Assembly: GCA_017620255.1 (NCBI GenBank)
Contig: JAFZQU010000039.1
Location: 1-54,785, forward strand
DNA: 54,785 bases
Direction of reading: 5' to 3'
Source of the DNA: Lachnospiraceae bacterium
Lineage (GTDB): Bacteria > Bacillota > Clostridia > Lachnospirales > Lachnospiraceae
The notes below the pieces were generated by a model. The model saw only the letters and a program-made list of their open reading frames with translations, was not told where the DNA came from and searched no databases. Position numbers and translations under genes: made by a program. This document shows, piece by piece, positions 3,501-48,588 of this stretch (its first letter is position 1; the number at the start of each line of letters is the position of its first letter).

Positions 3501-6500
3501 AGTGCAACAGAAGGAAATCTGTTCTATAAGGTCGATGACGGGGATTATTCCCCGGATCGTCCGACGGCTGTGGATGCAGGCACCTATGCGGTGACCTACA
3601 AGGTTTGTGCAGGCGATACAGCGAATACGGATGTGTTATGCCCCGAGGAGACCATCTCTGTCACGATCGCAAAAAGCCCTCTGTATCTGGCGGCGGACGA
3701 TCAGGCCAGCAAGAAGGGGCCTGGCAGTGAATTGCAGATATTAACCTATACCGCATTTGGTCTGGTTGAGGCGGATAAGGGTCCCGGAAAACTGAACATT
3801 TCGCTCAGTCTGCCGGATGGAACGACAGCAGATTCCGCTGTCGGTGCATACCCGATCACGCTTACCATAGATGAGGAGTACGCTGCAAAGAATTATGAAT
3901 TCACGGATGCGGATGGTGAGAGCAGGATCTCAAACGGGACCTATTTCATTACAAACGGAACCGTGGATCTGTCATCGCCTGCGCCGATGCCGACTCCTAC
4001 GCCATCTCCTACACCGACTCCGATCCCCGGTATCAAGTCGAAATTTACCGGCTATGAGAACATGAACGAGTCGATCACGCTTAGCGCCAAGTACCTGAAG
4101 GACGAAGACCACGCTGATAAGACAACGGTCGCTGAAGTATATTACAGCGATACGATCGAACTGGATGCGGATAATTACAAGACTGACGGGACGCAGATGG
4201 GTGTTTCGTATGCGGCAGTCGGTACCGACAAGACGGTGTATTACTATATCAGGACCACATCGGATGAGAAGACGCCTGAAGGGGAACCGGTGGTTTTGGA
4301 TACACTGGCTGGAAGCCAGCGCGTTGTGATCGTCAAGGCGGACCAGAAAACGCCCGGTATCTATCACGAAACAGATAACAAGGAAGGCATTGATTTTGAG
4401 CCCGGATTTAAGAATGAACGGGGCAGACTGATGTTCCCGAATTATAAGCCGCGTGAGACAGAGTACGAGTACCGCCGGGCTGACTGTGATCAGTATACGC
4501 GTATCGTTACCGCACAGATCGATGTGGCACCGGGATATTATTACTACATCAGAAGGATCGGGGACGCACGCAGAAATCCGAGCCCGGATACAGAGATATA
4601 CGTTGCGGATACAGGCGCAGATGTACCGGTTTTCTTCAGCGCAAATGCCGGGGACTTTGGTGAGGATGATGAGCATAACCCGATCAAAACAAAAACGGTA
4701 GATGTCGGCTACGGGAAAGTGATCAGTGATGATATGATACCTGAGCCGCCCACGCGTGACGATGGTGTCACATTTGCCGGATGGGAACAGGACGGAAAAC
4801 CTTTTGATTTTGCAAATACACCCATTACATCCCCGATCAGACTGGAAGCGGTATGGAATGTCAATACATATACGGTTACCTTTGACCCTCATGGAGGATC
4901 TTATGTGGATCCACAGCGCGTGGAGGAAGGCAAGAACGCCGCGCGGCCGGAAGATGTCACATACACAGGCTATAGCCTTGACAAATGGGTCGTTCAGGGA
5001 ACAGAGACAGCGTATACGTTTACTGAGGAGGTCCGTGAGAATATCACACTGGAAGCAGTGTGGAAACCGGTCACGTATAAGGTCACATTTAACAGCAATG
5101 GCGGAACCGGCGGGACTATGGCCGATCAGTCCTTTACATATGATGAAAGAATGCCGCTTGACAAAAACACCTTCACAAGAGAGGATCATGTTTTTGCCGG
5201 CTGGGATACCAAGGCTGACGGTAAGGGAACAGATTATTCGGATGAGCAGCCGGTTTGGAACCTTGCTTCAGAACAGGACAAAACCATCACGCTTTATGCG
5301 CAGTGGAAGAAACTGCTGAGTAGTGATGATGGTACGACTCCGTCAGACGGTATCACGGTAACGGTCGCAAATGCAGCAAATCTGATCTATAACGGCAAGG
5401 CTTTGAGACCTTCCGTGATCATAAAAGACGGCGGGACTGATATCACGAAGTATTGCAGCTTCGTGTATGAGAACAATGTGAATGCGGGTACCGCCAAAGT
5501 CACAGCTACGGTAAAGAGCACAAATGCGCCTTATGCAGGAAAAATCAGTCAGGAATTCACGATCCGAAAAACTGAGATGGACAACGACAGTGACCTTGGT
5601 GAATTCAGGCAGTATCTGTATTCCGATGCGGTCAGTGATCAGATCGATCTGATGGCTTATCTGCCGTCTGATGCGGGAGAGACGACCTGGGTGATCGAAC
5701 GGGATGAAGCCGGCGGGTTTAAGTATGACACGAATCCAGATGTGGCGGGAGGTATACTGTCTTATGCCGTAGCAAAGGCAGAAAGCGCCGGCGGTAATGC
5801 GACCATTTACGCGAAAGCCACCATGACGAATTATAAGGGGTCGGCTGAAGAAACCGTTACGATCGAGATCGAGCTCGGGCAGGTCGGCCTTACGATCGCA
5901 GAAAAAGTGGGTCGTGAATATGTGAGCACCGGATTGGATATGCGCATGACGGCCGGTAACAAGACAACCTTTGCGGCCATGTTTGCAGAGGGAGCCTTTG
6001 AAAATCAGCGCGTCAGATGGACAAGCAGCAATCCGGCTGTTGCCACGGTAACGCAGGATGGTAAAGTGACGGCGCTTGCACCCGGTCAAACGGAGATCAC
6101 GGTTGAATGCGAAGATGACGCAGATGATGAGAAGGATGCATTCTGCGACCTGACCGTTCTGGAACCGGTAACAACATTGACCCTGGATCAGAAGAGTTAT
6201 TCGATGGGCACGGGCGAGGTCATTGAACTGTTTGCTTCGGCCGTACCGTTTACGGCAGACAGGACCTTATCCTGGAGCGTCAATAACGCCAATGCGAAGA
6301 TCGTCAGCATTTCGGATGATACGATGTGTGCGCGGATCGTAGCAGTGGGTGCGGGAAGCGCCAAGGTCACGGCGGCAGCGACAGACGGCAGCAAAAAGAC
6401 AGCAGTCTGCAATCTCTCGATCGGTAATCCGGTCGGACAGTTCACGATCGCAGCCAAAGGAAATGCAAAAGCACTTGCAGTCGGCAAGACCCTTGGATTT

Positions 6501-16822: not shown

Positions 16823-16854
16823 TCGTATGAAGTTTGCTGCAAGGGAGAAGTGAG

Positions 16855-19800
16855 ATGAAACGTATCATGAAGAGGTTACTGGCAGGATGGCTTGCGCTTG
16901 CACTGGTTGTTACGGGAAATGCATTTCCGGTAACGACTTTGGCTGCAGAAATTGGGCAGACTGCGGAAGCGGAAACCGTTGCGGAGGATATGTCTGTCGG
17001 AACGGAAGATGTTCTTGTGGAGTCAGAAGGTGTTACGGATGAACCGGAAGAGGCCGAGGCTGTATCTGAAGATGCGGCCGATGAGGAAGCATACACTGCA
17101 GATGATGACGAACCGGCCACACTGCAGGTTGCAGAAGACGGGGATGAAATTGATCCTGACGATACAGAATATCTTCATGTCTACTATGTTGCGGAAGAGG
17201 GTGATGTGACCGGACTACCGGTGGATGATACGGACTATCAGAGCGGCGACAGTGTTACGATCGCTATGGAGCAACCGAGCCGTGAGGGTTATTCTTTCAT
17301 GGGCTGGAGTCCGACGGGAAATCCGGTTGAACAGTATACCGGCGGATATACGATCACGATCACCGAAGATCTGATTTTGACTGCGGTCTGGAATATGCTG
17401 GAAACGGAAGAACCCGAAGAGGATCCGGATGGAAATGAACGGCTCACCCTGACTCCCCATGAACAGAGTATCATTGAGGCAATTGACACATATGTAGATT
17501 CATTAGGCGGAGTATTCCCCAACAGCTACAAAGGTGTGGCATGGCAATGCTGTGCTTTTACATTGTATGTATGGGCAAACATCTACGGCAAAAGCTGGAA
17601 GGAAGATCCGAATATGTGCCGGCAGTATACTTCGAACCGGACACTGGAAAACCATGAGATCTATCAGTTCTTAAGAGAACATGACGCCCAAGCCGGGGAT
17701 ATCCTCTGGTGTCATTATCCTTACTCAGCAAAAAAATATCAGTTAACGCATAACATGATCATCCTGGAATATGATGAGACATCGATCACGCTGACTGATG
17801 GTTATGAGAAAAACGGACAGGGCGTGGTAGATGCAAATCATAAAAAGGTTAAATACACGGATGCCTACCGAAACAAGTTTTTTAACGGCAGCTGTTATAT
17901 ATCTCTCTATCACGTCACAGACGCATCCCTGATCGGTGCACCGGAACCACCCGTATATAACGGAAAATGCGGTGATAATCTGACATGGACACTCACACCA
18001 AACAGTAACGGCAGCAGGTATTATACCGTCACGATCTCCGGAACCGGTGCTATGTATGACTATGCGAAGGATGAGTATGACACATCCGGGAAAGCGCTGC
18101 CTCCCTGGACCTTAAATATGAAAAGTCATAATTATTACAATAACTCTTATGCTTCGATAAGCAGGGTTGTGATCAATTCCGGCCTCACTAAGATTGGCTC
18201 CTGCGCGTTTGCCGGACTTGGAGACAATGTTGATTGCATCATCAGCATTCCGGCTACCGTTACGGAGATCGGCGAGAGTGCCTTTGCATATTCAGGTTTT
18301 AGCGGCAGTCCGACTATTCCCAATAGTGTGACAAAGATCGGAAAGCGTGCCTTTATGAGCACGAAAATCACAAGCGTGACTTTCGGCAGCGGCCTCACAG
18401 AGATCCCGGACTATTGTTTCTGCGATTGTGAGAGACTGAACGGAACCATTACAATACCCGGAAATATAACAAAAATCGGCGAGGATGCCTTCAGCGTATC
18501 AACATACACGGAGGTCCCGAATACCAGGACTGTGACATGGCATGACGGGATCAGGGAGATCGGTGAGCATGCATTCTGGAATAACACCGGACTTATTATC
18601 GCAGCACCGATCTTGCCGGCAAACCTTGAGAAACTGGGAATGGGAGCTTTTGAGAATTGTACATCTCTGACAGGAAAACTGATTGTACCGGGCACACTCA
18701 AGGAAATCCCGCTTTATGTATTTCGAGGCGACACCGGTTTGACGGGGCTTGAGATCCAAAAAGGCGTTACAACTATTGGGGGCGGATCTTTCTACGGATG
18801 TAAGAATATCGAAGGAACACTTGCTATCCCGGCGGGAGTTGTTTATGTACAGGAAGCCGCTTTTAAAAACTGTGAAAAGATAAACGGTCTTTCGTGGGCA
18901 AAGCGAAGAGCGGGAGCAGAAAAAATATCTCTCGGCCGGGCGGCATTTGAAAATTGCAAGGCCTTGCAGGGGGACCTGGTTTTGGACTGCGATGATGTCA
19001 GCCTCAGTCAGGCGGACAGAACATTCATGGGAACGGGTTATACGCAGATCTATCTGGATGGCAGATGGTCCAAAATGACCATCAGGTACCTGAAAGGGAA
19101 AGAAGAGAATGGAAGCTATGACTCCTATGTGGAAGATGATGTGATCGATGAACCGGTTGCCACCTTCCCGCAGAATGCGACGCTCTACTATGACAGCAGG
19201 CTTTATCAGCCGGATCAGTATGAAGGGTTTGATAACGAACAGACCATCCGGGAAGCATTGACGAAACTTAAATACACGTTTTATGCAGGCTCTACCATAG
19301 GCCATGAACCTGGTTACGATGTTGCGGAAGCTAAGCCGGACAATCCGGGTCTCAACTATATCGCCGGTGCCGATTACGGGGACGGTATAGAACTGGTTCC
19401 TTATGCACCGGCGTATGCAAACATCCGTTGGGTGGATAACACGCTGACGGAATACAGTGCCGCGAACGATGCATTTATAACAGGATACGATCACAGCATT
19501 GTCGATATAAAATCCAATGGGGAGAAAACAAGAATTTACGTCACTCCTCTTAAACCCGGCCGTACCACCTACACCGTACAGGTCATGACCCAGCAGAGCG
19601 GCATACACACCGCAACCGGCACGATCACCGTGTCCGATGCCAATTCTGTGCATGGAGTCTGGCTGGATAAATACAGTCTTTCCCTGAACAAGGGTGCAAA
19701 GTATACGCTGAAGGCTACGGTCCTACCGGCAAACGCAAGGAATAAAGCGGTCACCTGGAGCAGCAGTGATGAAAGCGTTGCAACGGTCAGTGCAAAAGGG

Positions 19801-22032
19801 CTCGTGACGGCAGTCGGTAAAGGAAAAGCAACCATCACGGTAACGACCAGGGAAAACGGGTTTACCGAAACCTGTACCGTGACTGTAAAAGCAGACAGTT
19901 ACAAGGTCCGCTTCGACGGCAACGGGGCAGATGGCGGTTCCATGGCGGCCATGGATTACGATTACGGAAAGACTTACAGCTTGCCAAAGAATGCTTTTTC
20001 CAAAAACGGAAGCGTTTTTGACGGTTGGTGTACGGTTGCAAACCCAGATGAGAATGATCCCGGCGTCCGTTATGCCGATAAGGCCTCCGTTACGGATCTG
20101 GTTGAGAAAAACTATGCCGCAGATCCGGGTATTACGTTGTATGCACAGTGGAAGCCGGACAAGACCTATACGATCGCCTATGATGCCAATGCAAAGAAGG
20201 CATTCGGGTCCGATGTGAAAGGCTATATGTACGATGTCAGCGATCTGGAGTATACGGATACGGTTCCCGTATACATCAATTTCTATGAAGCCAAAGGCTG
20301 CACATTCGCCGGCTGGAACACCAAAGCAGACGGAACCGGAAAAGCCGTGGAGCCGGATACGGAGGTCACGTTGTCTGCAGATCTCGGTGTCAGCGAACTG
20401 GCTAAACCGGGTGTTGGCAAAATCACACTCTATGCACAGTGGACACCCAATACCTATGTGGCGACCTTTGATCTGAATGACGGTGGTACGCATACGGCAG
20501 AGTTTGATAATAAGACATTCGGGACCAGGCTGCTTGGAACGGACGAGGGATTGGATGCAAACCAGGCAGGGTTTACGTTTGGAACGGCAGTGTCAAAGCT
20601 TCCGACAGCCAAGAGAAACGGTTATGCATTTGGCGGCTGGTGCACAGACAGTGCCTGCACGACTCTGCTTAAATCCATTCCGAAGACGCAGACCTCCAAT
20701 CTGACACTCTATGCGAAGTGGACACCGTGGAAATATACCGTTACATATGACGGAAATAAAAATCAGGGCACCCCGAAATTTACCGTCAGCGGTTCCACAT
20801 CCAAAACAACGGCAAACTACGGAGAAGATCTGCGGATCAGTCCGAACGGTTTTATCAATAAGGGATATGAGTTTATAGGCTGGACTACCGTGAGTGGCAG
20901 TGCAACACCGGATCCAAATCTGACTGCGGCTAAAGTTGCAGACGGAATTGTGGAATGGACGGTTGTGCAAACCGTTAATGGTTTTGTGATCGATAAGAAC
21001 AGTGCATCCCTGAAACTGTATGCGGTGTGGAAAAAACTGGATCATTATACTATCGACTATAAAGTTGTTCCGCCTGCGATCAGAAATGAGAGTGACAGTA
21101 ACAAATATGATGCGACCTATGTGTATGGCGAGGGCCTTGACCGCGCACTTCCGACACCTGTCTGGGCCGGATATAAGTTCGAAGGCTGGTATGAAGATGC
21201 GACTCTCAAAAAACAGGTAAAGCAGATCGACAAGAAGACGTTTGGAAATCTGACCCTGTATCCGAAGTGGAGCGCCTCATATCGGGTTGTATTGCATGAC
21301 GGAGAGACAACTCCGAAAATACTTGCCGGATATACATATAACAAAGAGAAGGCACTTCCCGCGAATCCGTTCAAGAATGATAATGCGGCTTTTATGGGAT
21401 GGAAACTTAAAAACGGCGACGCTGTAAAATACGCCGATAAGGAGAAAATCAAAGCGCCGGAGCTGATACCGAACCCGGGTGACAATGTACTGACACTGGA
21501 TCTGTATGCGGTCTGGAAGAGTGATTTTACCTATACACTGGACCTGGACGGCGGCGTTTATCCCGCAGGTGAGAAGAACAAACTTCCGGCAGGCGTAAAT
21601 GCTTACACTTATGCACAGGTCAAAGCATCGGCGATCAACATGCCAAAGAATGTCATAAAAGACGGCTATAAATTCAATGGTCTGATCGATCAGGCAACCG
21701 GTAAGAAGATCACAAGCATCACCAAGACGACCTGCAGGGATTATGTGATCAAAGCCGACTTTACACCGCAGACCTACCAGATCACTTATAACGCGAACCT
21801 GCCTAAGGGCGCAAAGGGCGGCGGAAAGATGGCGACGCAGAAACTGACGGTCGGCCAGCCGGCAACCTTAAGCCCCAATGATTTTTATGCAAACGGATAC
21901 ACGTTTGTGGGATGGGCTTTGGATGCAAATGCGTTGTGGCCGGAATACGAAGACGGGGATGCGTTTGATTTTGGCGCAGCCGGATATAAGAGTAAAGTCA
22001 CGCTTTATGCGATATGGGCTAAGTTTCAATAG
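16855..22032 (+). CDS. Secreted CHAP/NlpC-like, LRR and InlB-repeat protein
   Basis: 1725 aa. Start at ATG 16855, with AGGGAGAAG just upstream. The signal peptide ends near LAAE-32 and closely resembles that of the previous gene (RLLAG...VTGNAF). In order: acidic spacer; one InlB-type repeat (about 106-182); a CHAP/NlpC-P60-like hydrolase domain (about 199-356) with C232-C233 in WQCCAF, H299 in LTHNMI and D315 in LTDGY, plus the common AGDILW strand; BspA-type LRRs (about 369-742); an unrecognised region; a Big_2 Ig domain (about 929-1012); and about ten Listeria-Bacteroides repeats to the end (G-x-x-F-x-G-W and L-Y-A-x-W). CHAP and NlpC domains cut peptidoglycan peptides or cross-bridges, so a cell-wall hydrolase or host/microbe-surface function is plausible. 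No sortase motif is seen. Confidence 0.85.
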   Translation: MKRIMKRLLAGWLALALVVTGNAFPVTTLAAEIGQTAEAETVAEDMSVGTEDVLVESEGVTDEPEEAEAVSEDAADEEAYTADDDEPATLQVAEDGDEIDPDDTEYLHVYYVAEEGDVTGLPVDDTDYQSGDSVTIAMEQPSREGYSFMGWSPTGNPVEQYTGGYTITITEDLILTAVWNMLETEEPEEDPDGNERLTLTPHEQSIIEAIDTYVDSLGGVFPNSYKGVAWQCCAFTLYVWANIYGKSWKEDPNMCRQYTSNRTLENHEIYQFLREHDAQAGDILWCHYPYSAKKYQLTHNMIILEYDETSITLTDGYEKNGQGVVDANHKKVKYTDAYRNKFFNGSCYISLYHVTDASLIGAPEPPVYNGKCGDNLTWTLTPNSNGSRYYTVTISGTGAMYDYAKDEYDTSGKALPPWTLNMKSHNYYNNSYASISRVVINSGLTKIGSCAFAGLGDNVDCIISIPATVTEIGESAFAYSGFSGSPTIPNSVTKIGKRAFMSTKITSVTFGSGLTEIPDYCFCDCERLNGTITIPGNITKIGEDAFSVSTYTEVPNTRTVTWHDGIREIGEHAFWNNTGLIIAAPILPANLEKLGMGAFENCTSLTGKLIVPGTLKEIPLYVFRGDTGLTGLEIQKGVTTIGGGSFYGCKNIEGTLAIPAGVVYVQEAAFKNCEKINGLSWAKRRAGAEKISLGRAAFENCKALQGDLVLDCDDVSLSQADRTFMGTGYTQIYLDGRWSKMTIRYLKGKEENGSYDSYVEDDVIDEPVATFPQNATLYYDSRLYQPDQYEGFDNEQTIREALTKLKYTFYAGSTIGHEPGYDVAEAKPDNPGLNYIAGADYGDGIELVPYAPAYANIRWVDNTLTEYSAANDAFITGYDHSIVDIKSNGEKTRIYVTPLKPGRTTYTVQVMTQQSGIHTATGTITVSDANSVHGVWLDKYSLSLNKGAKYTLKATVLPANARNKAVTWSSSDESVATVSAKGLVTAVGKGKATITVTTRENGFTETCTVTVKADSYKVRFDGNGADGGSMAAMDYDYGKTYSLPKNAFSKNGSVFDGWCTVANPDENDPGVRYADKASVTDLVEKNYAADPGITLYAQWKPDKTYTIAYDANAKKAFGSDVKGYMYDVSDLEYTDTVPVYINFYEAKGCTFAGWNTKADGTGKAVEPDTEVTLSADLGVSELAKPGVGKITLYAQWTPNTYVATFDLNDGGTHTAEFDNKTFGTRLLGTDEGLDANQAGFTFGTAVSKLPTAKRNGYAFGGWCTDSACTTLLKSIPKTQTSNLTLYAKWTPWKYTVTYDGNKNQGTPKFTVSGSTSKTTANYGEDLRISPNGFINKGYEFIGWTTVSGSATPDPNLTAAKVADGIVEWTVVQTVNGFVIDKNSASLKLYAVWKKLDHYTIDYKVVPPAIRNESDSNKYDATYVYGEGLDRALPTPVWAGYKFEGWYEDATLKKQVKQIDKKTFGNLTLYPKWSASYRVVLHDGETTPKILAGYTYNKEKALPANPFKNDNAAFMGWKLKNGDAVKYADKEKIKAPELIPNPGDNVLTLDLYAVWKSDFTYTLDLDGGVYPAGEKNKLPAGVNAYTYAQVKASAINMPKNVIKDGYKFNGLIDQATGKKITSITKTTCRDYVIKADFTPQTYQITYNANLPKGAKGGGKMATQKLTVGQPATLSPNDFYANGYTFVGWALDANALWPEYEDGDAFDFGAAGYKSKVTLYAIWAKFQ

Positions 22033-22730: not shown

Positions 22731-23405
22731 ATGAAAATTCTTGTCGTAGATGATGAAAGCCGGATCCGCAAACTGGTCCGGGATTTCCTGGCTAAAAAAG
22801 GATATGAGGTCGTGGAAGCGCAGAACGGACAGGAAGCGGTCGACCTGTTTTTTGAAACGAACGACTATGATCTGATCATTCTGGATATCATGATGCCCGT
22901 TATGGACGGCTGGCAGGTATGCCGCGAGATCCGTGAGTATTCCAAGGTACCGATCATCATGCTGACCGCAAAAAGCGATGAACGCGATGAACTGATGGGA
23001 TTTGAACTCGGCGTCGATGAGTATATTTCCAAGCCGTTCAGCCCGAAGATCCTGGTCGCACGCGTGGAAGCGCTGTTACGCCGCGTGAACGACGGCGAAG
23101 ATGACGGGGGCAGACTGGAAGCCGGCGGCATTGTGGTCGACAAGACGGCCCATGTGGTCACGATCGATGACAAACCGGTGGATCTGAGTTTCAAGGAATT
23201 CGAGCTGCTGACATATTTTATGGAGAATCAGTCCGTGGCACTCTCGCGTGAGAAGATCCTGAATCATGTCTGGAATTACGACTACTTCGGGGACGCACGC
23301 ACGATCGACACCCATGTCAAGAAGCTGCGCAGTAAGATGGGAGATAAAGGCGACTACATCAAGACTGTGTGGGGAATGGGTTACAAATTTTCCGCAAATG
23401 ACTGA
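22731..23405 (+). CDS. OmpR/PhoB-family response regulator
   Basis: 224 aa, normal length for the family. The receiver domain (1-120) has D7-D8, phospho-acceptor D52, T79 and K101. The C-terminal winged-helix DNA-binding domain (about 130-222) shows the typical FKEFELL, the second helix with REKILNHVW, and the recognition segment ARTIDTHVKKLRSKMG ending in IKTVWGMGYKF. Start at ATG 22731, with GAGGTG 6 bp upstream. In related bacteria such a regulator is commonly followed by its kinase; here the RiPP operon promoter comes next instead, and the only sensor kinase in the window is 25 kb downstream. It is thus an orphan by position, and its target genes are unknown. Confidence 0.92.
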   Translation: MKILVVDDESRIRKLVRDFLAKKGYEVVEAQNGQEAVDLFFETNDYDLIILDIMMPVMDGWQVCREIREYSKVPIIMLTAKSDERDELMGFELGVDEYISKPFSPKILVARVEALLRRVNDGEDDGGRLEAGGIVVDKTAHVVTIDDKPVDLSFKEFELLTYFMENQSVALSREKILNHVWNYDYFGDARTIDTHVKKLRSKMGDKGDYIKTVWGMGYKFSAND

Positions 23406-23429: not shown

Positions 23430-23458
23430 TTTACAAAACCCGATCCGTGAAGTATAAT
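23430..23458 (+). promoter_or_regulatory. Strong promoter of the RiPP operon
   Basis: TTTACA (23430-23435), 17-bp spacer, TATAAT (23453-23458). Transcription should start near 23465, giving a leader of about 18 nt with GGAGGG (23471-23476) six bases before the precursor start. The short leader leaves no room for a riboswitch. Confidence 0.75.
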
Positions 23459-23482
23459 ATAAGACAGTATGGAGGGCGCATT

Positions 23483-23683
23483 ATGGATAAACTTTCTGTA
23501 TTTTCCGAAAAAGCAAATATGCCTCTTAAGTTGGCAGAGGTAAAGGTTGGCTGTGATATAAATTATATCAAGCCTGACAGTCAGTGGTTTGACCGCAACT
23601 GGTCCAACGGAGCAGCTTGGTCCAACGGCAATACCTGGGGCAAGGGTTGGCTCGATAACGGTTGGAACAACGGTGGAAAATAA
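23483..23683 (+). CDS. Candidate RiPP precursor peptide with six W-x-x motifs
   Basis: 66 aa, starting at ATG 23483 behind GGAGGG; an in-frame upstream ATG at 23447 lies before the promoter -10 and is unlikely. The N-terminal half (1-33) looks like a leader: charged, with a hydrophobic strand-like stretch LKLAEVKVGCDINYI and one Cys (C24). The C-terminal half (34-66) is composed almost only of W, N, G, S, D, K and A: tryptophans at 35, 40, 46, 52, 56 and 61, each followed two residues later by D, N, N, K, D and N, and mostly spaced by Gly. Such W-x-N/D/K motifs are substrates of radical SAM/SPASM enzymes that make three-residue cyclophanes, and W-G-K is also a known radical SAM crosslink site. 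There is no GG cleavage site. It heads an operon with two radical SAM genes and an acyl-activation set. Confidence 0.85.
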   Translation: MDKLSVFSEKANMPLKLAEVKVGCDINYIKPDSQWFDRNWSNGAAWSNGNTWGKGWLDNGWNNGGK

Positions 23684-25031
23684 CTATTACGAGTATGAAA
23701 GCCTTTGGCGGTTCTTTGCCGACAGTGTGGAGAAATACGGTGATTCCGCGCTCTTTTGCAAAGAGACGGATACTGTTTCCTATCGGGATTTTAAAGAAGA
23801 TGTCCTGAAACTGACGCATTTTTTTACGGGAATCAAACAAAAAAAGATTGTGATTCTCACCGTAGATCCCGTGCGCTTTGCGGAGGCTTTTTTTGCTACT
23901 GTATTTAGCGGTCATATTGCATGTCTTTTTTCTCCGGAATATTCTGTTCCGGAGTTTTTATTGGACGGATATCTGTTTACGGATAATGAAGTGATCTCGG
24001 TTTTTCCGTCACTTGTGGAAATAGCGGAAGAACCCGTTATAACGGATCCGGATGCTCCGCGTATTGTTGTATTAAGTTCCGGTACAACGGGAAAAACGGA
24101 TGGGATCGTCTTAAGTGAGCGCAATGTTTTAAAGAATCTTTATTCAATCCTTAAGTTCTATTACTTCAGTCCGGGGGAGAGGCTTCTGCATGTTCTTCCT
24201 TATTGGCATATGTTTGGGCTCATGGGTGATCTTTTTATGGCGGCCTGCTGTGGAGCAGCGATCTGTCTGCCCGTGTCCGGCGCCGGGGTCCTGAAGGCGA
24301 TGAGAGATTTTAAGCCGGAGATCATAAATATGCCCCCGGCCATGGCAGATATGCTCTGTGAACTGATCGGGAAAGAAGGAGATGTCAGCGCTGTGACGGG
24401 AGGATGCTTAAGGCGCGTTATGTGTGCCGGGGCTCATCTTAACGAAAAGACATCTGACAGACTTCTCGGATACGGGATAAAACCGCTTACGGCCTATGGG
24501 ATGACGGAGTGTTCCCCCTGCATCAGCGTGATGCCGGAAGGAAAGCTTGTCAGGGGAACGTCAGGGGTGCTTCTTGACTGCTGGGAGATCCGTCTTTCCG
24601 ATGGAAACGAGATCCTTCTTCGCGGCGACTGCGTGATGCTCGGTTATATTGATGAGGCGGCGACGAAGGAAAGGATAAGGGACGGATGGTTTCATACCGG
24701 GGATATCGGCAGCATAGATGAAGAAGGATATCTTACCGTCTCGGGCAGGGTAAACAGTCTTCTTGTTTTTTCGAATGGGGTAAAGTGTTTTCCTGAAAGA
24801 GCGGAAGAGAAGATAAATCTGCTTCCTTTTATTTTGGAAAGCAGAGTGGCAAAAGTCACGGATAGGATCGGGGATCATCCGAAGCTCATCATTCATACTG
24901 AAAACGAAGCCGGCATAAACAGAGAAGAGGTCGATCGTATCATGAAGGAGTTTCGTGTATTTCCGTATGAAACAGAGTATACGGATTCGGCATTGCCCAG
25001 AAACCGCCTTGGAAAGATGATAAGGGAGTGA
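23673..25031 (+). CDS. AMP-forming acyl ligase (ANL superfamily), acyl-ACP loading candidate
   Basis: 452 aa if started at GTG 23673, which overlaps the precursor stop by 11 bp; a longer in-frame start at 23589 would lie inside the precursor and add unrelated residues. Adenylation motifs: P-loop S135-S-G-T-T-G-K141; LPYWHMFG; AYGMTE; DGWFHTGD with D344; SGR; and catalytic lysine K448 in RNRLGKMIRE. It is shorter than usual acyl-CoA synthetases (500-550 aa). It should activate a carboxylic acid (fatty, aryl or amino acid) as adenylate and pass it to a thiol, most simply to the ACP encoded two genes later. Overlap with the precursor gene implies translational coupling. The substrate cannot be read from the sequence; an O-succinylbenzoate-CoA ligase-like relative is the nearest alternative reading. 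Confidence 0.82.
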   Translation: MENNYYEYESLWRFFADSVEKYGDSALFCKETDTVSYRDFKEDVLKLTHFFTGIKQKKIVILTVDPVRFAEAFFATVFSGHIACLFSPEYSVPEFLLDGYLFTDNEVISVFPSLVEIAEEPVITDPDAPRIVVLSSGTTGKTDGIVLSERNVLKNLYSILKFYYFSPGERLLHVLPYWHMFGLMGDLFMAACCGAAICLPVSGAGVLKAMRDFKPEIINMPPAMADMLCELIGKEGDVSAVTGGCLRRVMCAGAHLNEKTSDRLLGYGIKPLTAYGMTECSPCISVMPEGKLVRGTSGVLLDCWEIRLSDGNEILLRGDCVMLGYIDEAATKERIRDGWFHTGDIGSIDEEGYLTVSGRVNSLLVFSNGVKCFPERAEEKINLLPFILESRVAKVTDRIGDHPKLIIHTENEAGINREEVDRIMKEFRVFPYETEYTDSALPRNRLGKMIRE

Positions 25032-25038
25032 GGATCAT

Positions 25039-25596
25039 ATGGGAGAGATGAGATTTGTAAGATATGACAGCAGAAAACATATGGATATTCTGCATAATAT
25101 CATGATGAATTCCGAGCAGCAGTATCTTTTTCTCGGACACAACAACATCAACAGTGTGCAAGAGTTCGGGGAATGGGTAGACCGGCAGCTTCGCGGGTAT
25201 TATTACAATTTTTATCTCATTGAGATGGATGAAAAGATTGTCGGATATGTCTGCGGCTGTAATTATAATTCCATCAACAGGAACTGTTCCCTTACAACTT
25301 ATATCTGTGATGAATGGCAGGGGAGCGGGATCGGTGCTCTGGCCACGATGAAGTATATTGATGAGTTTTTCCGCTATCATCCAATCAGAAGGATCTATTG
25401 CGAAGCATATGAATACAATGAGGCAAGCCTCAATACGATCCGCTCCGCCGGTCTTACGGAATACGGAAGAAATCCGGAATACCGGTATTTCCAGGATAAA
25501 TACTACGATCTCATCCTCTTTTCCATGTCGAGGGATGAATATATGGAGAAATACGCCGATCCCTTCTGGAGTGCCGAAAGGAAGAATGAAAGATGA
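25039..25596 (+). CDS. GNAT-family acyltransferase
   Basis: 185 aa. GNAT fold signs: the acyl-CoA/ACP binding segment Q-G-S-G-I-G-A (motif A) after strand SLTTYICDEW, helix ATMKYIDEFF, then motif B with N-x-A-S-L-x-T-I-R-S-A-G-L, as in RimJ/RimL/SpeG-like enzymes. It starts 7 bp after the ligase and its stop overlaps the ACP start (ATGA). Placed between an acyl ligase and an ACP, it most likely takes an acyl group from the ACP (or CoA) and puts it on an amine; in this operon the precursor peptide (its free N-terminus after leader removal, or K54/K66) is the obvious candidate. GNATs that acylate RiPPs are known from selidamides and goadvionins. A small-molecule target or self-protection by acetylation remains possible. 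Confidence 0.8.
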   Translation: MGEMRFVRYDSRKHMDILHNIMMNSEQQYLFLGHNNINSVQEFGEWVDRQLRGYYYNFYLIEMDEKIVGYVCGCNYNSINRNCSLTTYICDEWQGSGIGALATMKYIDEFFRYHPIRRIYCEAYEYNEASLNTIRSAGLTEYGRNPEYRYFQDKYYDLILFSMSRDEYMEKYADPFWSAERKNER

Positions 25597-25835
25597 CAAT
25601 GGATGAACTGACAAGGGTGGTCGAAGAACATATCAAAAAACCGACCGGTGTAACCCTTGATGCGGACGTAAAATTAAAGGAAGATCTGATGATGGATTCC
25701 TTTTCTCTCATCATCCTTTTCAGAGATCTTGAGGTGAAATGCGGAAGAGATCTTGATCCCGTGCTTTTGGGTAAAGTGCGCACCATAGGAGATCTGTATC
25801 ATTTACTCACAATTGAAGGGAGCAGTGATGAGTGA
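25593..25835 (+). CDS. Acyl carrier protein
   Basis: 80 aa, normal size. The phosphopantetheine attachment site is S36 in M-M-D-S-F, with helix 2 following (SLIILFRDLEVK) and acidic surface residues before it (VKLKEDL). It needs a phosphopantetheinyl transferase encoded elsewhere. The start overlaps the GNAT stop by 4 bp, and its 3' end overlaps the next gene by 8 bp. No ketosynthase or other chain-building enzyme is present, so it probably carries one ready-made acyl unit loaded by the ligase rather than serving fatty-acid or polyketide extension. Confidence 0.85.
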   Translation: MTMDELTRVVEEHIKKPTGVTLDADVKLKEDLMMDSFSLIILFRDLEVKCGRDLDPVLLGKVRTIGDLYHLLTIEGSSDE

Positions 25836-26118
25836 GCGTTTCCGGATAAGAAAGTATGCTTATGATCAGAAGAATCTTTTATTCTTGTCGCCTTACTGTG
25901 TCATTAATTATGATGGCGGATGCCTTTGTATCTGGCAATCGGTCTTTGATCTTACGCTGAAACTTCACTGTAAAAGAACTTTTTCCGAGGAACTTATTAA
26001 GCGGCTTTCCAAAGGCATTACCCGGGACGGCTTAAGAGAGGTTTTATCTTCGGCTCTGTCATCAGGGGAAGCGGACGATCTTATTGGAGAGTGCATGAGA
26101 GCGGGGATCATTGAATGA
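25828..26118 (+). CDS. Small RRE-like (PqqD-like) protein, putative precursor-binding partner
   Basis: 96 aa, taking ATG 25828; GGAGC precedes it inside the ACP gene. The N-terminal part has alternating hydrophobic strands with a turn (YCVINYDGGCLCI), and the rest is helical (ELIKRLSKGI, LREVLSSAL, DDLIGECMRAGIIE), an order of strands then helices like PqqD/RRE domains that bind RiPP leaders. The strand-turn pattern C-V-I-N...G-x-L-C-I also resembles the N-terminal segment of the next gene product (C-M-I-I-N...G-T-T-L-C-V), so it may be an extra copy of that domain. The final ATGA overlaps the start of the radical SAM gene. Sequence similarity is too low to be sure by eye; it could also be an unrelated small helper protein. 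Confidence 0.6.
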   Translation: MSERFRIRKYAYDQKNLLFLSPYCVINYDGGCLCIWQSVFDLTLKLHCKRTFSEELIKRLSKGITRDGLREVLSSALSSGEADDLIGECMRAGIIE

Positions 26119-27479
26119 TCAGGGAAGAAAGAACAGTAAAAAAAGATCTGGGGGATCTTCATATTGCTGATCTTTCTGTTTTTTATGCAGAAAAAGGATG
26201 CATGATCATAAATCCTTCTTCCGGCACCACCTTATGTGTGGAAAAGAAAGTCGCGGATGACCTGGCAGAAGGGAAGATATCCGATGATCTTGCTTTTGTC
26301 CTTACGCAGCGTGCCATGGCAGAATATGAAGGTGCCAGGCCTGTAAGGGAAGAGGCGCTCGAGGCGAATCCTTCTTTTTTCCTCATTGATATCACAAAAA
26401 GCTGTAACCTGAACTGTGTCTACTGCTTTAGGGAATTAAGCAGGAGCAGTCATCAGATGACCGATGAGATGCTGGATCGGATCGTAAACAGCATTTCGGA
26501 CCATGCATTGAGGAATTCCGGTCAAATGATCGGCGTTCAGGTATGGGGTGGAGAACCGCTTCTTCGGGCTGACAGGATAAAAAGAATAAAGCAGATATTC
26601 AATGAGCGTAAAGTCACGGTTGACTTAAGCATCGAGACTAACGGAACACTGATCACGGATGAGATTGCCGTAATGCTCAAGGAAAATGACATCCGTGTCG
26701 GAATCAGCATAGACGGGGATGCATTCATCCAAAATCGGCAACGTCCATTTGCTGACGGAACGGATTCATACAATAGTGTATTGCGCGGGATAAAAGCCCT
26801 TAAAGATGCCGGGGTGGAGGATTTCGGGACCATCACGGTTGTGACCTCCCATACGCTTGATAGGATAGAGGATATCCTTGATCATATGGTAAAAGAGCTT
26901 AAAATCCTGCATCTGAAGTTCAATATTATGCGGGAGATCGGAGAAAACCGCACCTTTTCGATCAGCGAGGACAGGATAGGAGAATATCTTGACAGGCTAA
27001 TCAGGAAGATCAAGGAACTGTATGATGAGGGGTATTCCGTTTCCGAAAGCAATATCCGGCAGAAGATAAGGAATCTTCTCATAAGAGCAAACGATAATAT
27101 TTGTGACGCAAGAGGCTGCCAGGGAGGTTACAGGATGATATCCGTAGACGCGGATGGAAAGGTCTATCCCTGTGAACTGACTGATGTTGAGGAATTTGTG
27201 ATAGGAGACATCCCGGTGGATAAAGACGCGGACTTTGATAAAATGGTCGAAGATGCGTCAAATAAAAAAGAAGGGTATTTCGCGGAGAGGGATAATGCCG
27301 AATGCCGGGATTGCCCCTGGTGGTATTACTGTCGGGGCGGCTGTCGCTCGGCTGCATATTTTAAACTGGGTTCGGTCCGGCCCGTGGATCCTGTGACCTG
27401 CAGATTCAATAAGGAATTATATCCACGCATCGTGGAACTCATTCTGGATGAGCCGGAGTTCGCATCCTCCATGATGTAA
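26115..27479 (+). CDS. Radical SAM/SPASM peptide maturase
   Basis: 454 aa. Residues 1-90 form a small N-terminal domain resembling an RRE. The radical SAM core starts with C97-x3-C101-x2-C104 (CNLNCVYC) for the SAM-binding [4Fe-4S] cluster and has the GGEP motif in VWGGEPLL. The C-terminal SPASM domain is complete: C335-x12-G-x4-C353, then C397-x2-C400-x5-C406-x3-C410, then C429, with an extra C330. This is the layout of anaerobic sulfatase maturases and of RiPP enzymes that make thioethers, C-C crosslinks or cyclophanes. The likely substrate is the Trp-rich precursor at the head of the operon; one Cys in that peptide makes thioether chemistry unlikely, so Trp crosslinking at W-x-N/D/K is favoured. 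The enzyme acts in the cytoplasm under strict anaerobiosis. Confidence 0.9.
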   Translation: MIREERTVKKDLGDLHIADLSVFYAEKGCMIINPSSGTTLCVEKKVADDLAEGKISDDLAFVLTQRAMAEYEGARPVREEALEANPSFFLIDITKSCNLNCVYCFRELSRSSHQMTDEMLDRIVNSISDHALRNSGQMIGVQVWGGEPLLRADRIKRIKQIFNERKVTVDLSIETNGTLITDEIAVMLKENDIRVGISIDGDAFIQNRQRPFADGTDSYNSVLRGIKALKDAGVEDFGTITVVTSHTLDRIEDILDHMVKELKILHLKFNIMREIGENRTFSISEDRIGEYLDRLIRKIKELYDEGYSVSESNIRQKIRNLLIRANDNICDARGCQGGYRMISVDADGKVYPCELTDVEEFVIGDIPVDKDADFDKMVEDASNKKEGYFAERDNAECRDCPWWYYCRGGCRSAAYFKLGSVRPVDPVTCRFNKELYPRIVELILDEPEFASSMM

Positions 27480-27512
27480 GAGATTTTGCATTTTGTTCAT
27501 TTGGAGAGAACT

Positions 27513-28466
27513 ATGAGAACAATGTATCTTGCAGTTGGTTATAACTGTAATCATAACTGCTTTTTCTGTCCTTGTGGGAAAAAAGAAAGAAGAGTAAAGA
27601 AGGCATCCCTCGACGAGCTGGAAGAGGCAGTCGATCTTGCTGTGAGGGAGCAGCACGTCGAAAGTATTACGATATCGGGAGGAGAGCCGACGCTTCATCC
27701 CGGTTTTCCGGAACTGATCTCATTCTGCCTTGATAAAGGCCTTGAAATCTGCATTCTTTCCAACGGTGAAAACTTCTTTCACAGGGAAAGGATAAGAGAC
27801 TTTTTCGGAGAACCCGGCCGTGGCAGGATTGAAGTGGTGACAGCCCTTCACAGTTACATTCCCGCTGTCCATGAAGAACTAAACGGAACAAAGGGAAGCT
27901 TCGAAAGGACGATACAGGGACTTAAAAACCTGGTGGAAGAAAACATCCCGGTGACCGTAAAACATATTTTATGCAGCAGGAACCATAAAGATCTTCCGGA
28001 CTTTGTTGATTTTATATTTGAGACATTCGGAGGAAAAACAGCGATGGAATTTACCGGAATGGATTACTGTGGGCTAAAAAAAGAACAGGCGGATCAGATT
28101 CATGCGGGATTCCGTGAAATGGGGATCATGCTTGAAAAGGCGCTCGACAGGATCGATTTTTACCGAAAGGAATACGGTGTATTCCGTCATGTGGCCGTGT
28201 CCGATTTTCCATTATGCAGCACAGACCCTCTTTATTGGAGATTTTTCGCTTCCTCTTCGAGAAACGGAACAGCAAGCTATGCAGCACCTGATGAAAATGC
28301 GGGGAAGGTTTGGCAGATTTCTGATATGGACGGGGACTGCGGATTATTCTATGAAGAATGCAGGGACTGCCTTATGAAGAGGGATTGCCCCGGGGTCTGG
28401 AGGTATGCATCTATATATTATCCGGACGGGAAAAAGGAGGGAATCAGGACGATCCACGCGGTATAG
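27513..28466 (+). CDS. Second radical SAM enzyme with short Cys-rich C-terminus
   Basis: 317 aa from ATG 27513, preceded by GGAGAG; a longer TTG start at 27486 has no ribosome site. The radical SAM cluster motif is C12-x3-C16-x2-C19, with an additional C21, and the GGEP motif appears in ISGGEPTLHPG, like MoaA/SPASM-family cores. The C-terminus has four cysteines (C276, C283, C286, C292) fit for one auxiliary cluster, a shortened SPASM or twitch-type domain. No B12 or methyltransferase signs. It lies 33 bp after the first radical SAM gene and probably makes a second change in the same peptide (for example epimerisation, another crosslink or oxidation), or prepares the acyl group. The exact reaction cannot be told from the sequence. 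Confidence 0.82.
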   Translation: MRTMYLAVGYNCNHNCFFCPCGKKERRVKKASLDELEEAVDLAVREQHVESITISGGEPTLHPGFPELISFCLDKGLEICILSNGENFFHRERIRDFFGEPGRGRIEVVTALHSYIPAVHEELNGTKGSFERTIQGLKNLVEENIPVTVKHILCSRNHKDLPDFVDFIFETFGGKTAMEFTGMDYCGLKKEQADQIHAGFREMGIMLEKALDRIDFYRKEYGVFRHVAVSDFPLCSTDPLYWRFFASSSRNGTASYAAPDENAGKVWQISDMDGDCGLFYEECRDCLMKRDCPGVWRYASIYYPDGKKEGIRTIHAV

Positions 28467-28493: not shown

Positions 28494-28544
28494 TTGAAAT
28501 ATCCCCCTGTAGTGGTATAATATAAATAACATTACAGGGGGATA
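28494..28544 (+). promoter_or_regulatory. Promoter and inverted-repeat operator of the DUF3990/HTH pair
   Basis: TTGAAA (28494-28499), 16-bp spacer, TATAAT (28516-28521). A 15-bp inverted repeat brackets the -10: TATCCCCCTGTAGTG (28500-28514) and CATTACAGGGGGATA (28530-28544), differing at one position. The right arm also contains the AGGGGGA ribosome site of the next gene. This is the layout of an autoregulated toxin-antitoxin operon: a repressor bound to both arms would block RNA polymerase. Confidence 0.75.
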
Positions 28545-28548
28545 CTTT

Positions 28549-29220
28549 ATGCGATTATATCATGGATCCGCTGTTATTGTAAGGAAACCGTCATACGGGA
28601 CCGGCAAGCCGTATAACGATTACGGCAGAGGATTTTACTGCACGGAGGATATCGATCGGGCCAGAGAGTGGGCTGTCGATAAGGAACGGGATGGGTATGT
28701 TAACTGTTATGAGATTGATTTTACTGGGCTGAATCTGCTTGACCTGAATTCAGATGATTACTGTATTCTGCACTGGATCACTTTGTTGCTGCAGAACAGA
28801 AGAATCGAACTGGAATCCCCTCTGGCAACGGAAGCGTATCACTATCTGTGTTCGCGTTATTCACTCGATATGTCCGGAGTGGATGCTGTAAAAGGATATA
28901 GAGCGGATGACAGTTATTTTTCCTATGCACAGAATTTTGTGAATGGGCAGATGTCTGTGCCACAACTTGCGAAGGCCTTGAAGTTGGGACAATTAGGGCA
29001 ACAGATCATGATAAGAAGCCGTAAGGCCTTTGGCGCTCTTTCGTTTGTGTCAAGCGAGAGTGTGTGTGCGTCCGAATGGTATTTACAGAAGAAGTTCAGG
29101 GATTCGGCTGCCAGAGAAGCATACAGGAAGATGAACAAAACTGACTACAGGCGTGGGGAACTGTATATGATGCACATTATCGATGAGGAGGTGGGACCGG
29201 ATGATCCGCGCTTACAATGA
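28549..29220 (+). CDS. DUF3990-family ADP-ribosyltransferase-like protein, putative toxin
   Basis: 223 aa. The N-terminus carries the DUF3990 signature: LYHGS with H5, then D-Y-G-R-G-F-Y30-C-T, then A-x-x-W-A, as in the H-Y-E group of ADP-ribosyltransferase folds in which His and Tyr hold NAD+. The rest is helical with several Trp and Tyr and no membrane or signal segment. The ATG at 28549 has AGGGGGA 6 bp upstream. The gene overlaps the HTH gene by 20 bp and has its own operator-promoter, as expected of the toxin in a toxin-antitoxin pair. The target (protein, nucleic acid or small molecule) is unknown, and toxicity is inferred from context. Confidence 0.72.
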   Translation: MRLYHGSAVIVRKPSYGTGKPYNDYGRGFYCTEDIDRAREWAVDKERDGYVNCYEIDFTGLNLLDLNSDDYCILHWITLLLQNRRIELESPLATEAYHYLCSRYSLDMSGVDAVKGYRADDSYFSYAQNFVNGQMSVPQLAKALKLGQLGQQIMIRSRKAFGALSFVSSESVCASEWYLQKKFRDSAAREAYRKMNKTDYRRGELYMMHIIDEEVGPDDPRLQ

Positions 29221-29836
29221 ACTGTATTTGTCCGATGCACGGAGGACGTTGGCAAACTGTTTTGATTATGCGACTAACAGCCTGGAGATTCCGTTTGAGA
29301 AGTTTTATATGATGTTTGCCAACAGTGATCTGGCCGGAAAGTTTGAGGAAGGCGACCCGTTTATCGTGTCAGGGAAATCCGGAATCGAACTGGCTCTTCT
29401 TGTTGTGGAGAAGAATTCGGGCGTGTATGAATATATAGACAGGAAGTATGGAGACGGCAGGAGCAGGGAATACTGGGCCGGTTGGGCAATAGCTTTTTAT
29501 CAGTGGTACAGCGCCTGTACTTTCAGACGACTTCATGAGGACGTTCCGGTATCAGATATCGTCGCCATGTATGATAAGTATCATGAAATGGATGTTATGC
29601 ACTTTGTTGACAGGATAGAGGAACTCAGGCGGAAGGCAAGGCTTGAGACATATGTAAAAAAAAGCAGGGAAATGAGAGGCTACAGTCAGAGTGAACTGGC
29701 GAAAATGACAGGAATCCCGCTTAAGACATTGCAACACTATGAACAGGGAACAAAATCATTAGACAAAGCGAATGTATCCTACGTACTTTCCCTCTCACAT
29801 GCATTGGAATGCAGCCCGGAGGATCTTATCAGATAG
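29201..29836 (+). CDS. HTH (Xre-type) protein, putative antitoxin of DUF3990
   Basis: 211 aa from ATG 29201, chosen because GAGGAGGTGGG (29185-29195) lies just upstream inside the DUF3990 gene. The N-terminal two thirds include a segment FYxMFANSDLAGKFEEGD...GKSGIELALLVVEK like the small DUF3791-type partners of DUF3990 proteins. The C-terminal 65 residues are a lambda-repressor-type helix-turn-helix (YSQSELAKMTGIPLKTLQHY). It would bind the inverted repeat before the operon and neutralise the neighbour, as in type II systems; the fusion of a partner-binding part with a DNA-binding part fits that double job. It could alternatively be a plain transcriptional regulator. Confidence 0.75.
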   Translation: MIRAYNELYLSDARRTLANCFDYATNSLEIPFEKFYMMFANSDLAGKFEEGDPFIVSGKSGIELALLVVEKNSGVYEYIDRKYGDGRSREYWAGWAIAFYQWYSACTFRRLHEDVPVSDIVAMYDKYHEMDVMHFVDRIEELRRKARLETYVKKSREMRGYSQSELAKMTGIPLKTLQHYEQGTKSLDKANVSYVLSLSHALECSPEDLIR

Positions 29837-47317: not shown

Positions 47318-48588
47318 CTAATTTTCTGACGTATGCAGTCATCCTGCTGGGACTGATCGTGGGGATCGGTTTCATCAACGAAAAAAAGATCAAACTGACC
47401 TACGAGATCGCCCTGATGCTCTTTTCCGCCGTGATCGGTGCCCTGATCATGGGAGCGGATGCCCTGATCAAGGATGAGACGGTCAGCACCCTGCTCTATG
47501 ACATACAGGTATTCGATCTGGAAGATTTCCTGATGAAGGGCGTGCTGTGCTTTATGCTCTTTGCAGGGTCTTTCCGCATGCGCTTATCGGACTTTAAACG
47601 TCTGGCACGTCCCATCGGTGTTTTATCCATTCTGGCGACGCTGCTTGGTGCGGTCATTTACGGCGGGCTTTTTTACGGAGCTGCAAGGCTCTTTGATCTG
47701 CCCTTCACCCTGCCGATGTGCCTGATGTTTGGAAGCATCGTTTCCCCCACTGACCCCATCGCTGCAACCAGTATCCTGAACAAATTCGGACTGCCTAAGG
47801 ATACCAGTTTTGTCCTGGAGGGTGAGTCGCTCTTAAATGACGGTGTCGGTGTGGCAATCTTTGTCTGCTTTTCGAATCTCGTAAAAGCGCAGCAGCAATC
47901 CGGCAGCGGATTCTTTACCGTATTCTTCCGGGAGATCCTCGGAGCCGTTGCGATCGGCGGTGCTGTTTCCCTGCTGTGTTTTGTGCTTTTCACGCATCTT
48001 ACGGATAATAAACGGCGCATCTACTTAAGCCTGTTTACCGTGGCCCTTTCCTACAGCCTCTGTGAGCTCTTTGACTGTTCCGGCGCGATCGCATCCGTTG
48101 TCTGCGGATCGATATTCGCCTCTTTACGGGAGCGGGAAGAAGAAAAAAGAGGGGGCTGGGACCTGGGTGATTTTGACGCCTTCTGGGAGACCATCGACAA
48201 TCTGCTGAACTCGATCCTCTATGTGATCCTCGGGTTCTCCTTTATGCGGATCCTGCAGATGCCAAGAGTCATCCTTCTGTCCCTGACGGCCATCCTTTGT
48301 AATACGTTTGGACGTGCAGGCAGTGTGTTTGCTTCCACGGCTCTCATGGGACCGCTTCCGGACGGGTTTAGGGCGAAGGATTTCACGCTGCTCTTTACCT
48401 GGGGCGGACTCAAAGGCGGGCTTTGCATCGCGCTTGCCATGAGCACGGCGTCCATGATGCCTGCCGGGGATTATCATATCGTACTTGGCTGCACCTATGC
48501 GATCGTATTCTTTACCACCATCGTGCAGGGGCTGACCATTAAAAAACTGTACGGACAGATCACGAAGAAGAGGAAGGCAAAAGCATGA
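47314..48588 (+). CDS. CPA1-family Na+(K+)/H+ antiporter
   Basis: 424 aa, about 12 membrane helices. Family motifs: G-S-I-V-S-P-T-D-P-I-A (residues near 145-155), the transport-site region, and E-G-E-S-L-L-N-D-G-V-G, as in NhaP/YjcE-like cation/proton antiporters. The long hydrophilic C-terminal tail found in some members is absent. It overlaps both neighbours by 4 bp. With the MATE gene upstream it links ion homeostasis and efflux, possibly under control of the kinase that follows. Confidence 0.9.
   Translation: MTNFLTYAVILLGLIVGIGFINEKKIKLTYEIALMLFSAVIGALIMGADALIKDETVSTLLYDIQVFDLEDFLMKGVLCFMLFAGSFRMRLSDFKRLARPIGVLSILATLLGAVIYGGLFYGAARLFDLPFTLPMCLMFGSIVSPTDPIAATSILNKFGLPKDTSFVLEGESLLNDGVGVAIFVCFSNLVKAQQQSGSGFFTVFFREILGAVAIGGAVSLLCFVLFTHLTDNKRRIYLSLFTVALSYSLCELFDCSGAIASVVCGSIFASLREREEEKRGGWDLGDFDAFWETIDNLLNSILYVILGFSFMRILQMPRVILLSLTAILCNTFGRAGSVFASTALMGPLPDGFRAKDFTLLFTWGGLKGGLCIALAMSTASMMPAGDYHIVLGCTYAIVFFTTIVQGLTIKKLYGQITKKRKAKA

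Follow-up and report, generated by a model that had tools for sequence, protein, structure and literature searches.

A Lachnospiraceae operon that may join triceptide-like radical SAM peptide maturation to acylation from a carrier protein

What is made by an operon that combines a short, tryptophan-rich peptide and two radical S-adenosylmethionine (SAM) enzymes with an acid ligase, an acyl carrier protein (ACP) and a GNAT acyltransferase? The question is raised by positions 23430-28466 of contig JAFZQU010000039.1 from a Lachnospiraceae bacterium (assembly GCA_017620255.1); the whole stretch of 54,785 nucleotides was analyzed and is referred to here as the window. On balance we think it probable, judging from sequence features, that the product is a triceptide-like ribosomally synthesized and post-translationally modified peptide (RiPP), acylated from an ACP-bound acid on its C-terminal lysine or on a freed N-terminus. 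The genes and their families, the conserved catalytic residues, the similarity among precursors, the spacing of Trp and Asn/Asp within them, and the co-occurrence of the genes in other genomes are observed directly.

An earlier sequence-only reading had described a seven-gene operon with a promoter and with overlaps or gaps of at most 33 bp. This description holds: all seven open reading frames (ORFs) were found, in the order peptide, ligase, GNAT, ACP, small protein, and radical SAM enzymes rSAM1 and rSAM2, with successive junctions of -11, +7, -4, -8, -4, and +33 bp. In the following list, L009, L018, and L019 denote related loci in other genomes.

23430..23458, + strand: sigma-70-type promoter TTTACA-N17-TATAAT, 11 of 12 consensus bases, 24 bp to the peptide start
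23483..23683, + strand: precursor peptide, 66 aa; leader with KLSVFSEKA, Trp-rich core; similar precursors in L009, L018, and L019
23673..25031, + strand: ANL (AMP-forming) acid ligase, 452 aa; GTG start, 11-bp overlap with the end of the peptide gene; PF00501, E = 1.4e-40
25039..25596, + strand: GNAT acyltransferase, 185 aa; PF13302; homologues in L009 and L019
25593..25835, + strand: ACP, 80 aa; PF00550; phosphopantetheine Ser36
25828..26118, + strand: small conserved protein, 96 aa; no family; fused to the rSAM2 C-terminus in L019
26115..27479, + strand: rSAM1, radical SAM/SPASM enzyme; PF04055 and PF13186; CX3CX2C (C97, C101, C104); full SPASM cysteine set
27513..28466, + strand: rSAM2, HxsC-like radical SAM enzyme; PF04055; TIGR03977 at 118.6 bits; C-terminal C235, C283, C286, and C292

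Pfam thus bears out the enzyme families proposed earlier (ligase, GNAT, ACP, both radical SAM enzymes, and the SPASM domain), and the label "RRE-like" given to the small protein was not confirmed, as no family matched it. The exact promoter string occurs once in the whole window. Promoter-like sites between 21000 and 31500 number 22 versus 16.5 ± 4.1 in shuffled sequence, which is not clearly above expectation. For rSAM2, the ATG start lies at 27513 and an alternative TTG start at 27486. A second promoter matching 11 of 12 consensus bases (28494-28521) precedes the gene after rSAM2, which makes 28466 the most likely end of the operon.

In all four precursors (window, L009, L018, and L019) a short leader is followed by a Trp-rich core, which in the window consists of the units WFD, WSN, WSN, WGK, WLD, and WNN and ends in GGK. 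The spacing within these units is a new observation here; the sequence-only reading missed it, together with the HxsC likeness of rSAM2. The four peptides contain 31 Trp, 30 of them with a residue at +2, and that residue is Asn or Asp in 28 of the 30, the two exceptions being WGK (window) and WDH (L018). Shuffled cores contain a mean of 6.3 such W-x-[ND] units and reached 28 in 0 of 100,000 cases; at other Trp offsets from -5 to +6 the Asn/Asp count ranges from 0 to 9, and none exceeds 9. The middle residue is variable across precursors. Taken singly, the window precursor is enriched at p = 0.0023, and those of L009 and L019 were matched in 0 of 20,000 shuffles. The window peptide is no chance ORF: among the 2073 short ORFs (30-160 aa) read from 253 kb, it and the precursors of two relatives are the only three with at least five W-x-[ND] units. 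Three units are present in the fourth precursor and in one unrelated short ORF of the same set.

Pairwise BLAST links the window precursor to that of L009 (E = 0.001), L009 to L018 (0.006), and L009 to L019 (5e-8), in each case partly via the repeats; no remaining pair of precursors gave a significant match. A leader pattern drawn up after the precursors had been seen, [LIFV]-x-[VI]-F-[SK]-x-[KA], fits three of the four, with a shuffle rate of 0.04-0.26%; the precursor of L019, with KKFDVFKAPA, falls outside it. Against the GrrA model the window precursor scores 15.7 bits, below the cut-off of 31.

Relatives were sought with the window rSAM1 as probe and, in later samples, with the rSAM1 of L019 or L009. 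At 1e-30, matches within the genus were confined to the window's own genome (1 of 37), and six of 397 genomes matched within the family: the window, a relative at 37% identity (G141, which carries L018), and four outside the rSAM1 clade described below. A pattern-limited scan of an 84,980-species collection yielded a single locus (45% identity): L009, carried by an Oscillospiraceae assembly obtained from water deer. Among 394 genomes sampled from the order of L009, two matched at 1e-45, the genome of L009 itself and G785 (32%), which carries L019. No further member was identified in a class sample of 381 genomes or in three more samples (394, 192, and 195; possibly sharing genomes). On plasmids, all matches to the window rSAM1 (662 records) and to the L019 rSAM1 (539 records) are below 60% identity, and none of the matches listed looks like a member (15 of the 662, at most 29.4% identity; 8 of the 539, at most 25.6%). 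No member was seen in viral contigs; their single match is short, covering residues 86-180 at 31%. Four radical SAM/SPASM loci at 26-32% identity (L005-L008) were rejected as members, as they fall outside the rSAM1 clade; the SPASM match of L006 lies just below cut-off, and the 2.7-4.0 kb examined per locus held no short ORF with more than one W-x-[ND]. These searches bring the known members to four, so that within the collections covered the system is rare and its distribution scattered.

The RiPP set (rSAM1, rSAM2, small protein, and Trp-rich precursor) is present in all four loci; enzyme homologues that consistently lack a Trp-rich small ORF, which would have counted against the earlier reading, were thus not seen within the rSAM1 clade. 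The acyl set is present in three of the four, in three different arrangements. The exact seven-gene order, which the earlier reading had proposed to look for around rSAM1 homologues, occurs in none of the three other loci, which read as follows.

L009: kinase-like, small protein, rSAM1, rSAM2, precursor, third radical SAM, 274-aa protein, U32-family, GNAT, ligase, ACP, glycosyltransferase
L019 (G785): HD-domain protein, GNAT, precursor, rSAM2-small protein fusion, rSAM1, 589-aa protein, ligase, ACP
L018 (G141): small protein, rSAM1, rSAM2, precursor, FkbM methyltransferase, 277-aa protein, UbiU-like U32 protein

The catalytic and SPASM cysteines of rSAM1 are invariant in all four loci, and the four proteins are 32-45% identical to one another. 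In a tree of 16 rows, built with long-branch warnings, they form one clade (support 97/99) apart from HxsB, MftC, GrrM, and L005-L008. According to PMC11002830, the characterized triceptide enzyme OscB bonds Trp C7 to the C-beta of Asn or Asp at i+2. On the Phaeobacter piscinae plasmid pP18_a, at a locus annotated as GrrM/OscB (L042), a small upstream ORF adjacent to grrM (2624-2974) has C-terminal WLN, WSN, WNN, and WSN units; annotated as hypothetical, it is likely a GrrA-type precursor. Given that OscB cross-links W-x-N and W-x-D and that a grrM-adjacent ORF carries the same units, formation of three-residue cyclophanes is the likeliest reaction of rSAM1. A profile alignment of rSAM1 to the plasmid GrrM spans 337 columns (E = 8.5e-30). 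The GrrM/OscB model TIGR04261 (cut-off 310) gives 138.4 bits for the window, 100.9 for L009, 111.4 for L018, and 81.3 for L019, all below cut-off. PADLOC gave viperin-like matches for both enzymes, rSAM1 at 60.2 bits and rSAM2 at 46.7 bits, which were taken as generic radical SAM similarity.

Three of the four loci have homologous ligases and GNATs, and each of these three also encodes an ACP. In all three, the ligase keeps the motifs SSGT and TGD and the C-terminal Lys (K447). Its nearest solved relatives are 4-coumarate-CoA ligases, and against G432 the window ligase scores 318 bits with the cluster ligase and 128 with the next best. Ser36 of the ACP is likewise invariant. The nearest solved relatives of the GNAT are diamine/spermidine N-acetyltransferases, which act on terminal alkyl amines. 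All three precursors of loci with the acyl module end in GGK, and that of the one locus without it, L018, ends in DRW; the C-terminal Lys of the L009 precursor is its sole Lys after the first Trp, and the L018 core contains no Lys. From the ligase motifs, Ser36, the GNAT kinship, and the GGK ends, we propose a relay from acid to acyl-AMP, to acyl-ACP, and to a peptide Lys. According to PMC13060382, RiPP acylation by GNATs is established at N-termini and at Lys/Orn side chains. The earlier suggestion of a cross-linked peptide that is also acylated finds support at the level of gene content, the acyl module accompanying the peptide module in three of four loci, with acylation itself the predicted outcome.

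For rSAM2, the best family is HxsC in all four loci (110.8-123.7 bits, below the TIGR03977 cut-off of 267.9), and its C-terminal cysteine layout matches that of three HxsC proteins. We know of no report of the reaction of an HxsC-type enzyme. The 96-aa protein is homologous in the four loci. Neither NCBIfam nor Pfam matched its window copy, and the L009 and L018 copies likewise have no family match. The PqqD model found nothing on the operon's contig, a comparison with MftB gave no similarity, and hhalign against HxsD gave no alignment (4 versus 2 sequences; shallow profiles). Its size, its position, and its fusion to rSAM2 in L019 suggest that it may be a precursor-binding subunit.

We infer every chemical step of the following pathway, as well as the acid, the acceptor, and the step order. 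The ribosome would make the 66-aa precursor, in which a leader (residues 1-34) precedes the Trp-rich core, and the 96-aa protein probably helps to bind this precursor. Most likely, rSAM1 would then form three-residue cyclophanes via C-C bonds from the Trp indole to the C-beta at i+2; in the window precursor, Asn/Asp and the Lys of WGK would serve as acceptors, giving as many as six small consecutive rings. The HxsC-related rSAM2 would make a second radical modification. The ANL ligase would adenylate a carboxylic acid and load the ACP, from which the GNAT would move the acyl group onto the modified peptide. The accepting primary amine would most likely be that of the Lys side chain at the GGK end; failing that, it would be the N-terminus exposed once the leader is cut off. 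A peptidase and an exporter would lie elsewhere.

Several observations count against this proposal. With regard to acylation, the GGK correlation amounts to three loci versus one, pairwise BLAST of the ACPs gave no match for two of three pairs and E = 0.054 for the third (each is still ACP-like), and the identity of the acid cannot be read from sequence. Conceivably, the acyl set acts on the peptide with no fatty acid and not at the C-terminal Lys, for example by coupling the N-terminus to an aryl or amino acid, or by using an ACP-bound building block elsewhere on the core. This is unlikely in our judgment but deserves serious consideration: the ACP weakly resembles the petrobactin carrier AsbD (21.1 bits), the ligase has 4-coumarate-CoA ligases as its nearest solved relatives, and PMC13060382 includes N-terminal acylation among GNAT RiPPs. 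The Lys of the proposed pathway is favored by the GGK ends, found in 3/3 precursors with the module and 0/1 without, and by the resemblance of the GNAT to diamine acetyltransferases.

With regard to ring formation, rSAM1 reaches no NCBIfam cut-off, and the window protein scores nearly equally with sulfatase maturase (151 bits), PapB (150), DynA (142), GrrM (138.4), and HxsB (136), so its reaction is not fixed by sequence alone. Its profile alignment to HxsB (E = 2.8e-27) is similar to that to GrrM, and the tree, with its long-branch warnings, does not join rSAM1 to GrrM. Among the precursors, that of L018 taken alone gives p = 0.087 for W-x-[ND], and the window precursor has no BLAST match to that of L019 and matches that of L018 only at E = 2.6. 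It is thus conceivable, though rather doubtful, that the product is a radical SAM RiPP in which rSAM1 performs other Trp chemistry, such as bonding through oxygen or nitrogen (C-O, C-N), hydroxylating the ring residue, or joining it to Lys or to a second Trp, and that the W-x-[ND] spacing arises for a different reason; the near-equal family scores (136-151 bits) and a tree that does not place rSAM1 with GrrM leave room for this. However, Trp-Asn/Asp from i to i+2 is a known cyclophane unit (PMC11002830), and it is kept in 28 of 30 cases while the middle residue varies.

Locus L018 bears on whether the two gene sets belong together. No cluster-type ligase, ACP, or GNAT was found in its 20 kb (tblastn, E up to 0.1), a stretch in which the contig breaks off 2.4 kb ahead of the cluster. 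Another GNAT gene (PF00583) lies at 1527-2033, 0.4 kb upstream of the cluster, and does not align with the cluster GNATs. On another contig of the same genome (L017, G141:C83:7000-15000), condensation, carrier-protein, and AMP-binding genes stand in a row (937-4114) and look like a separate synthetase set for a peptide or acyl product; the ligase match there (140-167 bits to the cluster ligases) was set aside as part of this condensation/carrier/adenylation trio. Given the unrelated GNAT upstream and the gene trio, acyl supply in trans is possible for L018, a further point against the proposal.

Alternatively, the GNAT could provide self-protection, with the ligase and ACP making a separate small molecule. 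Some GNATs in such clusters confer self-resistance (PMC13060382), but GNAT, ligase, and ACP occur together in all three loci with any cluster-type acyl gene and the window operon has no other gene that would use acyl-ACP, which makes this improbable. That the RiPP and acyl sets are unrelated chance neighbors, as the L018 RiPP set lacking its own acyl genes and the varying gene order could suggest, is very improbable, since ligase, ACP, and GNAT genes stand with the RiPP genes in three distinct genomes in three orders and those of the window are packed in a single run with 4-11 bp overlaps.

Among known systems, triceptides (XncB, OscB/GrrM, and MscB) share a SPASM radical SAM enzyme and a small precursor with repeated W-x-N/D units. 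The aromatic-X-X core of triceptides with an acceptor third residue (Asn, Asp, Arg, or Ser) corresponds to W-x-[ND] here, in 28 of 30 cases, and the SPASM maturase beside the precursor corresponds to rSAM1. The operon differs in that rSAM1 falls below the GrrM/OscB cut-off and in its extra HxsC-like enzyme, small partner, and ligase/ACP/GNAT set. A triceptide rule is included in antiSMASH 8.0, according to PMC12230676. The His-Xaa-Ser system (HxsD-HxsB-HxsC-HxsA) shares the radical SAM pair, with rSAM2 nearest to HxsC in all four loci, and the L009 and L018 order of small protein, rSAM1, rSAM2, and precursor parallels hxsD-B-C-A. In contrast to HxsA of L024 and L023, the precursors have W-x-[ND] in place of His-x-Ser repeats; the HxsB and HxsC cut-offs are not reached, and ligase, ACP, and GNAT are annotated in none of the three Hxs stretches examined. 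Membership in the Hxs system was rejected because no His-x-Ser precursor is present and the cut-offs are missed; the kinship is kept for rSAM2.

A GNAT within a RiPP cluster is shared with selidamides and GNAT-lipidated lanthipeptides (kamptornamide, phaeornamide, and nostolysamide; lipolanthines and goadvionins), and acylation of side-chain amines is known in GNAT-acylated RiPPs (PMC13060382). Unlike those lanthipeptide systems, the operon encodes radical SAM peptide enzymes and its own ligase and ACP. Mycofactocin (MftA-B-C) likewise has a partner protein of about 100 aa beside a SPASM enzyme and short precursor, but the small proteins have no detectable similarity and the precursor and partner genes differ. 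Searches of an open-access collection, outside which most subscription papers lie, showed among the entries listed no RiPP that combines radical SAM enzymes with ligase, ACP, and GNAT genes. The earlier statement that this is not a described class stands within that scope, as no characterized pathway matched in families or in that literature.

In the window, a response regulator (22731-23405) and a histidine kinase (48585-50060) are 25.2 kb apart; their homologues are 1.5-4.0 kb apart in all six genus relatives examined, which come from the sample where the window's genome alone had rSAM1. Given this difference in distance, the operon looks to sit within an inserted stretch. Apart from the operon itself, positions 23406-48584 encode a DUF3990 pair, an AAA protein, a 3504-aa ORF, a MatE transporter, and a Na/H exchanger. 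The pair (28549-29836) consists of a DUF3990 gene followed by an overlapping helix-turn-helix gene, with its own 11/12 promoter; against PADLOC candidate defense models it scores 129.9 bits with PDC-M42A and weakly, 30.4 bits, with PDC-M42B. Upstream of the operon, a repeat-like 1732-aa ORF (16834-22032) appears by eye to encode a surface protein.

Other genes accompany the relatives. Beside the RiPP genes of L009 (5187-6988) and L018 (6144-7996) stands a U32-family member with an adjacent smaller partner of little or no U32 score. The best NCBIfam families of these U32 members are TrhP or UbiU, far under cut-off (62 bits against 440 for the UbiU-like protein of L018), and the arrangement recalls the UbiU-UbiV oxygen-independent hydroxylases. 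The 589-aa protein of L019 was considered as a U32 protein and rejected: its resemblance to the smaller U32-associated protein is confined to the C-terminal half (E = 9.3e-6), and the UbiU-like one is unmatched. The L019 cluster lies between a serine-recombinase-like gene (4123-5766) and a conjugation-ATPase-like gene (18010-19501), both judged by eye.

Overall, the system is best placed among triceptide-like RiPPs, with the acylation module as an addition, and there is a fair chance that it forms a separate class. More tentatively, and short of an expectation, the loci could represent a new class of RiPPs from anaerobic bacteria of the gut type, "acyl-triceptides", with Trp-Asn/Asp cyclophane ladders, an HxsC-type modification, and GGK acylation by a ligase-ACP-GNAT relay; the UbiU-like U32 proteins of the relatives may hydroxylate the peptide without oxygen. 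If real, an acyl-triceptide would be, to our knowledge, the first RiPP to join radical SAM cyclization and carrier-protein acylation. The rare, scattered distribution and the placement of one copy near recombinase- and conjugation-like genes suggest that these peptides have moved horizontally. If the proposal is true, rigid C-C ring cross-links and acyl tails, both of drug interest, would be coupled in a compact seven-gene operon, which would also provide substrates for testing an HxsC-type enzyme and a candidate acceptor for a GNAT fed by a carrier protein.

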